NCBI RefSeq assembly: GCF_009908315.1
Contig: NZ_JAAATW010000004.1
Coordinates: 124,001 to 188,000 of the forward strand
From: Paragemmobacter ruber
GTDB taxonomy: Bacteria; Pseudomonadota; Alphaproteobacteria; Rhodobacterales; Rhodobacteraceae
DNA: 64,000 bases
Reading direction: 5' to 3'
Position 1 is the stretch's first letter. The number at the start of each line of letters is the position of its first letter. The notes beneath the pieces are model-generated. The model ran no database searches. It saw only the letters and a program-made list of their open reading frames with translations, and was not told the origin of the DNA. Positions 27,755 through 29,059 of this stretch are shown piece after piece. A program made the position numbers and the translations under genes.

Positions 27755-28378
27755 ATGACCCGCATCTTCTCTTATGGCGTCATCGCCATGGCCGCCGTCG
27801 TGGTGGCCTCCAACATCCTCGTCCAGCATCCGATTGGCACCTGGCTCACCTGGGGTGCCTTCACCTATCCGCTGGCCTTCCTCGTCTCGGATATCGTGAA
27901 CCGGCTGGAAGGCCCCGCCGCCGCGCGCCGGGTTGTCTATGTTGGCTTCCTTGTCGGTCTGGCCTGTTCGGCCATCGGCACCCAGATCATGGGGGAATAC
28001 GGCCCGCTCGTCACCCTGCGGGTGGCCATCGGATCGGCCATGGCCTTCCTGCTGGCGCAACTTCTGGATATCGCGATCTTCGACCGGCTCCGCCGTCAGG
28101 CATGGTGGAAGGCGCCCTTCATCTCTACCTTCGCGGGGTCCACGCTGGATACCGCGATCTTCTTCACCATCGCCTTCTCGCTATTGTTCAGCTTCCTTGA
28201 ACCGGGCAATGACGTGTCATGGGCGGCCGAAACCATGCCGCTTCTGGGCTTCGGCCCGCAGGTCCCCTTCTGGGTTTCGCTGGGTGTTGCCGACTGGTGT
28301 GTGAAAATCGCCGTCGATCTGATCGCATTGTTGCCGTTCCGCTTTGCGATCCGCCATTTCGGCGTAAAGGTTGCGTGA
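27755..28378 (+). CDS. yhhQ: Queuosine precursor transporter (YhhQ/VUT family)
   Basis: Inner-membrane protein of 207 residues of the YhhQ/VUT (COG1738) family, which imports queuosine precursors preQ0/preQ1 for tRNA modification. Six hydrophobic segments are seen. Family stretches are SNILVQHPIG, LTWGAFTYPLAFLVSDIVNR, AFLLAQLLDIAIFDRLR, STFAGSTLDTAIFF and GVADWCVKIAVDLIALLPFR. Complete. It lies downstream of the phytase-like gene with a 109-bp gap holding its own possible promoter. A separate short unit starts right after its stop. Confidence 0.9.
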   Translation: MTRIFSYGVIAMAAVVVASNILVQHPIGTWLTWGAFTYPLAFLVSDIVNRLEGPAAARRVVYVGFLVGLACSAIGTQIMGEYGPLVTLRVAIGSAMAFLLAQLLDIAIFDRLRRQAWWKAPFISTFAGSTLDTAIFFTIAFSLLFSFLEPGNDVSWAAETMPLLGFGPQVPFWVSLGVADWCVKIAVDLIALLPFRFAIRHFGVKVA

Positions 28379-28384
28379 TTTCTT

Positions 28385-28413
28385 TTGACAAACACAAAAT
28401 CTGTGCGAACCTC
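28385..28413 (+). promoter_or_regulatory. Possible promoter of the short 28.4-28.6 kb unit
   Basis: TTGACA (28385-28390) sits 6 nt after the yhhQ stop. At a 17-nt spacing the -10 would be aacctc (28408-28413), which is poor. The sharp fall in GC content here and the perfect -35 support a promoter, but the -10 leaves doubt. Confidence 0.4.
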
Positions 28414-28448
28414 ACCCTACTAGCAACCCATTGAAAGGAGGTGATCCA

Positions 28449-28505
28449 GTGTCTAGAGCTACATTGGAGAGAGGTGTCGGGACAGTCAGGGGGCGTGTTT
28501 TCTGA
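28449..28505 (+). CDS. 18-residue small ORF with near-ideal ribosome binding site
   Basis: GTG-started ORF encoding MSRATLERGVGTVRGRVF. It is preceded by aaaggaggtgatcc (28434-28447), which is complementary to the conserved 3' end of 16S rRNA over all 14 bases, with 7 nt between GGAGG and the start. The stop codon lies inside a 7-bp hairpin (ctgaggg 28502-28508 with ccctcag 28513-28519). The ORF is followed by about 70 nt and a strong terminator. I do not recognise the peptide. It could be a leader peptide, a small protein, or the coding part of a dual-function RNA. Confidence 0.5.
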   Translation: MSRATLERGVGTVRGRVF

Positions 28506-28558
28506 GGGCAGCCCCTCAGTCGACAGACCATCTGATTGGGCTTGAAACCTAACTGGCC

Positions 28559-28567
28559 CATCTCCTT
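28559..28567 (+). promoter_or_regulatory. Anti-Shine-Dalgarno segment in the short transcript
   Basis: catctcctt can pair with aaggaggtg at 28435-28443 over nine consecutive positions (eight Watson-Crick, one G-U). If formed, this helix would hide the ribosome binding site of the small ORF. It lies just before the terminator hairpin, so it could switch translation late in transcription. Confidence 0.45.
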
Positions 28568-28575
28568 GGATCTCG

Positions 28576-28609
28576 GAAAGGGTCGCCGCGCAGGCGACCC
28601 TTTCTCTTG
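28576..28609 (+). terminator. Intrinsic terminator of the short unit
   Basis: A perfect 12-bp stem (gaaagggtcgcc 28576-28587 with ggcgaccctttc 28593-28604), 5-nt loop, then tcttg. It separates the small ORF from arfB, which starts 25 nt downstream. Confidence 0.8.
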
Positions 28610-28633
28610 TGAAACCCGCACCATCCACCGCCC

Positions 28634-29059
28634 ATGCTCCGCATCACCGACACGATTGCCATCGCCGATTGGGAACTGTCCGAGCAGTTCATCCGCGCCT
28701 CCGGCCCGGGCGGGCAGAACGTGAACAAGGTCTCGACCGCCGTCGAACTGCGGTTCGAGGCAGAGCGCTCCCCCCACCTGCCCCCGCCGGTGAAGGCGCG
28801 GCTGAAGCGTCTTGCCGGGCGGCGCTGGACAACCGAAGGCGCCATCGTCCTGCAGGTGGATGAAACCCGCTCTCAGGCCCGCAACCGCGAGATTGCGCGC
28901 GAACGTCTGGCCGATCTGATCCGTCAGGCGCTGGTCGCGCCCAAGCGGCGCATCGCCACCAAGCCCACCCTCGGCAGCCAGCGCCGCAGGCTTGCCGCCA
29001 AATCCGTGCGGGGCGAGGTGAAATCCCTGCGGGGCCGGGTCGATGGCGACGATGACTGA
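28634..29059 (+). CDS. arfB: Alternative ribosome-rescue factor / peptidyl-tRNA hydrolase ArfB
   Basis: Protein of 141 residues of the ArfB (YaeJ/ICT1) family, which enters stalled ribosomes and releases nascent peptide. The catalytic GGQ is in SGPGGQNVNKVST. The C-terminal basic tail that occupies the mRNA channel is present as PKRRIATKPTLGSQRRRLAAKSVRGEVKSLR (read in segments). Length matches E. coli ArfB. It overlaps the APH-like gene by 17 bp (or 8 bp if that gene starts at 29052). Confidence 0.93.
   Translation: MLRITDTIAIADWELSEQFIRASGPGGQNVNKVSTAVELRFEAERSPHLPPPVKARLKRLAGRRWTTEGAIVLQVDETRSQARNREIARERLADLIRQALVAPKRRIATKPTLGSQRRRLAAKSVRGEVKSLRGRVDGDDD

Follow-up and report, generated by a model that had tools for sequence, protein, structure and literature searches.

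The window, that is, the whole 64,000-nucleotide stretch of DNA that was analyzed, carries a compact unit on its forward (+) strand at positions 28379–28615. This unit is flanked on the same strand by a yhhQ-like gene upstream (27755–28378; profile match to Pfam Vut_1) and by an arfB-like gene of 141 amino acids downstream (28634–29059; profile match to the RF-1 domain). A previous sequence-only reading had described here a TTGACA motif, a ribosome site, an 18-residue GTG open reading frame (ORF), a hairpin over the stop codon, an anti-Shine-Dalgarno (anti-SD) segment and a terminator, and examination of the sequence and its folding found each of them at the positions given. The TTGACA, a −35-like element, lies at 28385–28390. 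An A/C-rich leader (28420–28432), of the CAAC or AAC type that recurs in relatives, precedes the extended Shine-Dalgarno (SD) sequence GAAAGGAGGTGATCCAG, also written GAAAGGAGGUGAUCCAG, which was assigned at 28433–28449 by sequence and by comparison with 16S rRNA. The ORF, referred to here as rreR, appears in the ORF list at 28449–28505 with a GTG start, 18 codons and a TGA stop (28503–28505); its peptide reads V S R A T L E R G V G T V R G R V F.

Several hairpins are predicted within the unit. A start-codon hairpin (28445–28468), absent from the earlier list, is formed by 8 bp between UCCAGUGU (28445–28452) and ACAUUGGA (28461–28468), and is seen both in the minimum free energy (MFE) structure of the unit folded alone and in the family alignment. 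The stop-codon hairpin of the MFE structure (28502–28519) consists of 7 bp between CUGAGGG (28502–28508) and CCCUCAG (28513–28519). The intramolecular anti-SD CAUCUCCU (28559–28566) pairs with AGGAGGUG (28436–28443) in the MFE structure and in the family alignment. The proposal that catctcctt (28559–28567) pairs with aaggaggtg is upheld by comparative data, with the helix trimmed to the 8 bp that involve 28559–28566. The terminator stem-loop (28575–28605), seen in the sequence and in the MFE structure, comprises 13 bp (28575–28587 with 28593–28605) and a GCGCA loop. It had been described as a 12-bp terminator; the stem is present and 1 bp longer, and a consensus scan calls no terminator at the unit, the U-tract of the window copy being interrupted. 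The arfB-like ORF starts 28 nt past this stem. Folding of 28379–28640 gave an MFE of −95.7 kcal/mol (z −2.70). The observation of a unit at this locus is correct, and the unit is far from what chance would provide.

The consensus scan likewise called no σ70 promoter at the unit, with no match to a −10 element. Given that the scan calls neither signal, the promoter and terminator assignments rest on conservation and on the stem. A TTGAC was present no more than 80 nt 5′ of the SD in 105 of 132 loci (genus loci together with family loci of the 18-amino acid type), and in 101 of those 105 it lay 46–51 nt before the SD. From the spacing of the −35-like element and the point at which the Rfam CC2171 model begins, transcription would start near 28420. 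The promoter region at 28385–28408 is largely kept in the genus as TTGACAAACACAAAATCTGTGTCA, which includes an ACACA…TGTGT inverted repeat that could be an operator; the window copy has TGTGCGA at this place.

The extended SD is complementary to the 3′ end of 16S rRNA, as taken from relatives, over 17 nt. The sequence-only reading had recognized a perfect complement but had given its length as 14 nt. A search of family genomes gave GAAAGGAGGTGATCCAGCCGC as the 16S 3′ end, and a 16S oligonucleotide for Sinorhizobium meliloti that appears in PMC6943124 reads GGCUGGAUCACCUCCUUUCU. Without mismatch, AAAGGAGGTGATCC occurs at one site in the window's own 3.96-Mb assembly; with up to two mismatches it occurs at 44 sites, compared with 12 for the reversed control. 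Given that no second unmismatched AAAGGAGGTGATCC was found in this assembly, its own 16S end seems to be missing from it.

The distribution of the unit was assessed in sets of genomes of increasing breadth. A 22-mer from the unit, allowing up to two mismatches, was present in 37 of 61 relatives and once per genome in all 19 genomes of the genus, and its reversed control had no match in any of the 61. With up to one mismatch, GAAAGGAGGTGATCCANTGTC was found in 67 of 385 genomes of the class, and thus most class genomes are without this form. With up to three mismatches it was found in 207 of 248 family genomes, an upper bound because such matches include the 16S end itself or chance occurrences; the reversed control also matched in a few genomes. 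From this last search 110 family loci were fetched, of which 106 could be parsed as elements and 93 of these have 18 codons. Four of the 144 genus and family loci were left out of parsing, since the site had three mismatches or was not found (L276, L313, L358 and L366); exactly 18 codons are present in 125 of the 140 that were parsed. Removal of five near-duplicates and of eight sequences without Glu7 left the family set of 127 sequences used below, in which shared kinship means that counts are not independent. The SD, the ORF and the pairing are kept in relatives, as the sequence-only reading had asked of a real element, and its description of a self-contained unit is also supported by the comparative data.

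Among named genomes, the exact pattern occurs in 117 stretches. Among the 80 of these that were listed, the names that could be recognized were all of Alphaproteobacteria, some stretches being from metagenome-assembled genomes with broad titles, and included Bradyrhizobium, Microvirga, Sphingomonas, Parvibaculum, Hyphomicrobium, Citreimonas, Frigidibacter and others. One stretch titled Tepidisphaeraceae bears an ORF of the Bradyrhizobium type and was probably mis-binned. In a draw across the phylum, 50 of 86 genomes of the class matched with one mismatch, as against 7 of 213 genomes outside it. By sequence, then, the unit is largely family-wide and occurs in scattered lineages elsewhere in the Alphaproteobacteria.

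Across these lineages a 5′ cassette consisting of the CAAC-type leader, the SD, the start codon and a following UC recurs, whereas the ORFs differ by lineage. The family considered here has VSRxxLExGVGT… (18 amino acids), Bradyrhizobium has the VSYTKRCHLAGIAR type (GTG start, 14 amino acids), CC2171-type members have VSHCH…TWI.A, Sphingomonas-type members have MSHGSAxxSV (18 amino acids), and other types end in …EQP[SL]. In six further loci (L025, L128, L129, L182, L183 and L257) the extended-SD cassette heads ORFs of 55–63 amino acids. By eye these look like secreted small proteins with a signal peptide-like N terminus; N termini such as MSNGLVRLIALAA are similar to those found in certain short members, and no Pfam match was found for the two that were tested (L182 and L128).

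Within the 127 family sequences, codon usage in the ORF is close to frozen at several positions. Arg3 is AGA in 115 of 115 cases, Leu6 is TTG in 115 of 120, Glu7 is GAG in 126 of 127 sequences and Thr12 is ACA in 122 of 124. By contrast, Ser2, present in 124 of 127, is encoded by four codons (TCT 69, TCG 39, TCA 13 and TCC 3), and the codon of Gly11 varies synonymously between GGG and GGA. The mean entropies at positions 1, 2 and 3 are 0.51, 0.63 and 0.74 bits over codons 2–13, and 1.54, 1.42 and 1.13 bits over codons 14–18. A coding gene of such depth should have far freer third positions. Because the third positions show scarcely more variation than the first and second, selection acts mainly on the RNA and not on the peptide, and the constraint on the ORF is mainly at the nucleotide level. 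Part of the codon pattern arises because the start-codon hairpin pairs codons 4–7 with the SD-start region; the third base of codon 2 sits in the loop of this hairpin in the family alignment. A coding interpretation drawn from amino acid conservation was considered and is weakened by the frozen codons and by the entropies. Since the 18-codon frame is nonetheless kept in 125 of 140 loci, translation probably matters. The suggestion of a dual function for RNA and peptide is therefore weakened by the mainly nucleotide-level constraint, although the 18-codon frame is retained.

The fold of the family RNA was examined by MAFFT and RNAalifold alignment of the 127 sequences; this alignment and Rfam RF01867 took the place of a custom covariance model. 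In the RNAalifold consensus the SD core, GGAGGTG, which is invariant in all 127 sequences, pairs with the 3′ anti-SD. Paired cells amount to 97.9% for the anti-SD helix, compared with 52–63% when the helix is slid, and to 95.0% for the start hairpin, compared with 36–47%. When sequences were folded singly, the mean helix probability was at least 0.5 for the anti-SD helix in 117 of 127 and for the start hairpin in 108 of 127; the anti-SD motif C[AG]YCTCC is present in 112 of 127. No two-sided changes were found for the anti-SD helix in this alignment because the SD is invariant, and the changes that do occur in it are mostly of a kind that keeps wobble pairs. In the terminator stem, 94.7% of cells are paired and 154 cells show two-sided change; the stop-codon hairpin is only weakly kept in the consensus. 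In 60 of the 127 sequences, drawn at random, the SD was on average unpaired at 0.039, compared with 0.298 in shuffles of the segment that starts at codon 3 and stops 45 nt short of the end. Openness of the SD was below that of all 20 shuffles in 41 of the 60 sequences, and below all but at most one in 49. The comparative data thus support a family RNA that folds to hide its SD, with the start codon in its own hairpin, and a self-switching RNA, as had been proposed, is a fair reading of the modeled pairing between SD and anti-SD.

A third helix, between codons 9–11 and a stretch before the anti-SD, is 91.5% paired in the alignment. Only 26 of the 127 single folds give it a probability of 0.5, and the MFE structure of the window copy lacks it; for these reasons it is not relied upon. 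The possibility that the whole 3′ segment mimics 16S rRNA (CUAACUGGCCCAUCUCC compared with CUGGAUCACCUCC) was set aside as the main explanation because CUAACYGG is better explained by pairing with codons 9–11 and a stretch further upstream; only CAYCUCC mirrors 16S within the segment.

An SD lock extending across the class was also considered and rejected. The 110 class elements used here were taken from 214 by leaving out the family set, ORFs of more than 45 amino acids, short or terminator-less pieces and near-duplicates. Among them the SD was on average unpaired at 0.35, compared with 0.30 in shuffles; 35 of the 110 were below 0.2, and in 11 at most one of 20 shuffles was as low. Many CC2171-type members have an SD more open than that of their shuffles, and in Bradyrhizobium-type members the start codon is wholly buried by folding, the SD only partly. 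As far as these folding models go, the SD lock is lineage-specific.

The energetics of opening were calculated for the same 127 family sequences. In these model energies the duplex with the 16S tail has a median of −32.2 kcal/mol as against a median opening cost of 10.6 kcal/mol, and opening by the 17-nt tail is net favorable in all 127. The 7-nt core taken alone is net favorable in 123 of 127, although its median is no better than −3.6 kcal/mol, and thus the extended SD would not be strictly needed to open the fold. The GAAA at the 5′ edge of the SD is predicted to be unpaired at 0.5 or more in 97 of 127.

We take the window unit to be rreR, the 18-amino acid Rhodobacter/Roseobacter counterpart of Bradyrhizobium rreB. 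Both are said to have been described by Hahn et al. in 2017 (RNA Biol 14:1353–1363, PMC5711450), with rreB reportedly associated with the 30S subunit, weakly translated and of start codon-dependent stability, being stabilized when the start codon is missing. Members are reportedly recognized by a complement of at least 16 nt to the 16S 3′ end just upstream of a small ORF and by a short monocistronic transcript. The complement at 28433–28449 is 17 nt; the ORF has 18 codons here as in the great majority of genus and family loci; and the TTGACA and the terminator stem fit, at the level of sequence, a short monocistronic transcript. Further reported points of likeness are the extended SD of about 17 nt, the GTG start and the single short ORF in a small stand-alone mRNA, with 14 amino acids in Bradyrhizobium and 18 in the Rhodobacter/Roseobacter lineage. 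The family is placed in that lineage because Citreimonas and Frigidibacter are among its named records (L169 and L184). If rreR is as reported, a unit of this kind is already in print for this lineage, and the window holds a further copy of rreR, which represents in Rhodobacterales the rre group of small mRNAs that have an extended SD. Table 1 of PMC7217052 has entries for a 14-amino acid small protein of Bradyrhizobium japonicum and an 18-amino acid small protein of Dinoroseobacter shibae, both unstructured, and cites Hahn et al.; these rows would correspond to rreB and rreR.

The unit also shares its 5′ cassette with Rfam CC2171 (RF01867), a Caulobacter sRNA. The sequence-only reading had recognized no described family; the matches to rreB/rreR, as reported, and to CC2171 do not bear this out. 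The window unit scored 34.6 bits (E 2.7e-05) against the CC2171 model, below its gathering score of 75. In a scan of 20 related loci, 18 had E ≤ 0.01 and one (L044, 76.3) was above the threshold. The shared features are the 5′ cassette GAAAGGAGGUGAUCCAGUGUCU, exact in the alignment, and the terminal hairpin. In the CC2171 model, codons 3–5 pair with the stretch before the terminator, and many CC2171-type members have an open SD (0.55–0.58 unpaired), whereas that of the window copy is hidden. A search for CC2171 together with Caulobacter found no paper in the literature searched; two earlier Caulobacter noncoding RNAs are reported in PMC4117421 to have proved translated. There is in addition a likeness to leader-peptide RNAs in which the SD is sequestered (translational attenuators), which have a short ORF and a cis pairing of SD and anti-SD that a ribosome could open. 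Unlike in those, it is the short ORF's own SD that is hidden here, and the next gene is preceded by a terminator stem. Among the papers listed in the literature search, none dealt with a cis anti-SD in rreR, and one may exist. Possibly new are the comparative support for an SD that is locked in cis while a foothold stays open, the observation that the ORF is constrained at the nucleotide level, the connection with CC2171 found across the class, and the gene order yhhQ-rreR-arfB.

On balance, we consider it probable, though well short of certain, that the unit is a small mRNA that closes on itself and captures 30S subunits, the ribosome thereby setting its expression. A transcript of ∼185 nt would start just 5′ of the SD and end at the terminator near 28605. 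The free RNA would fold shut, with the SD core paired to the anti-SD at 28559–28566 and the GUG in its hairpin. Being mostly unpaired, the GAAA at the SD's 5′ edge could offer a foothold for the UUUC end of 16S rRNA, and the resulting 17-bp duplex would be strong enough to open the fold. The 30S subunit would then be tightly bound after its capture at a weak start codon, and because of this, translation would be poor and the fate of the RNA would depend on ribosome binding. What the analysis shows is the anatomy, the conservation, the closed fold as seen by comparison, and a constraint mainly on nucleotides; that the RNA is transcribed, captures 30S subunits, switches and decays in a ribosome-dependent manner is inferred. 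If the fold is indeed closed and is opened by the 16S tail, this is a conserved RNA that has the ribosome, and not a metabolite, as its input. It would give a reason for keeping a 17-nt SD that is expected to slow translation and not to help it, and would provide a test case for the sensing of small-subunit supply in Alphaproteobacteria.

The neighboring genes bear on a different explanation, in which the unit is an attenuator leader of arfB: a 30S subunit on the SD would alter the fold near the terminator and so set read-through into the rescue gene. In 17 of 18 genus loci the unit is followed by an arfB gene on the same strand, as it is in 90 of 114 further loci of the 18-amino acid type (107 of 132), and the gap between terminator stem and arfB, for which arfB start codons are approximate, is at most 60 nt in 70 of 108 cases and at most 35 nt in 48, as well as 28 nt in the window, which leaves little room for a promoter. 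Where the gap is short, transcription from the promoter of rreR or of yhhQ probably continues into arfB, and for this reason a role as an arfB leader is possible. On the other hand, 38 of the 108 cases have a gap of more than 60 nt, and yhhQ, which precedes the unit in all 18 genus loci and in 107 of the 114 further ones (125 of 132), is linked more often than arfB; these neighbor counts include a few loci from the same genome and some contigs that break off early. The terminator forms independently beside the SD/anti-SD helix in the MFE structure, with no competing structure visible there. Outside the 18-amino acid type, arfB is near two of eight other family loci and was found once, in divergent orientation (L049), among 181 other class loci, whose flanks differed in length, and no fixed class-wide neighbor was found in these 181 loci or in the flanks of 17 representatives. 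We regard an attenuator leader as unlikely. A combination of the two schemes, in which a 30S subunit invades at GAAA and displaces the anti-SD in a toehold switch read by the 16S tail, wired in Rhodobacterales as an arfB leader such that the supply of free 30S subunits or ribosome stalling sets arfB expression, seems to us decidedly unlikely; an arfB link, if functional, would tie small-subunit sensing to ribosome rescue. In L049, from a genome of another family, the divergent arfB match begins 84 nt upstream of the cassette, which makes this a second instance of arfB lying close by.

That the 18-amino acid peptide is itself the product, with the long SD serving strong initiation, would agree with the conserved frame, start and stop position and with the recurrence of Ser2, Leu6, Glu7, Gly9, Val10, Gly11 and Thr12, of which Ser2 and Gly11 use synonymous codons. 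We judge this improbable, in that third positions are hardly freer than the others in codons 2–13 and less variable in codons 14–18, Arg3, Leu6 and Thr12 have nearly always one codon each, the peptides differ between lineages, the D. shibae small protein appears as unstructured in PMC7217052, and the start codon and SD are predicted to be buried. A trans-acting sRNA, whose CAUCUCC anti-SD would bind the SDs of other mRNAs while the SD and ORF part serves as its own lock, would account for the prevalence of the anti-SD motif in the family, and a motif of this type is reported for the Caulobacter alphaR8 sRNAs in PMC12559287. As this segment sits in the cis helix in most single folds, and as the 17-nt SD and the kept 18-codon frame would be left unexplained, we hold it to be very improbable. 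The self-closing mRNA that captures 30S subunits remains our preferred interpretation.

Similar sequences were also seen in more distant settings. Four of the seven matches outside the class (L394–L397, from four genomes) precede a gene that we take, from its sequence, to be 2-oxoacid:ferredoxin oxidoreductase beta-like; the gene starts with AAGGAGGTGATCTGATGTC, apparently an ordinary strong SD. One further match is chance-like. The other two (L398 and L399, from two genomes of one family outside the Alphaproteobacteria) look rre-like, with UAAGGAGGUGAUC, an AUG UCG start and 18-amino acid ORFs ending in AMSEGRSS and AMSEGRVY, followed by a terminator-like hairpin; among the 79 genomes of that family, these two alone carry the unmismatched form. 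The cassette was present on six viral contigs (L258–L263), of which L263 was too short and five could be read. L258, L259 and L261 carry Bradyrhizobium-type ORFs of 14–16 amino acids, L260 a 33-amino acid VSHCH ORF and L262 a 71-amino acid ORF; these cassettes may be prophage neighbors or host DNA. Within the class, one genome (G048) has two different copies of the cassette, L097 and L098, with different ORFs.
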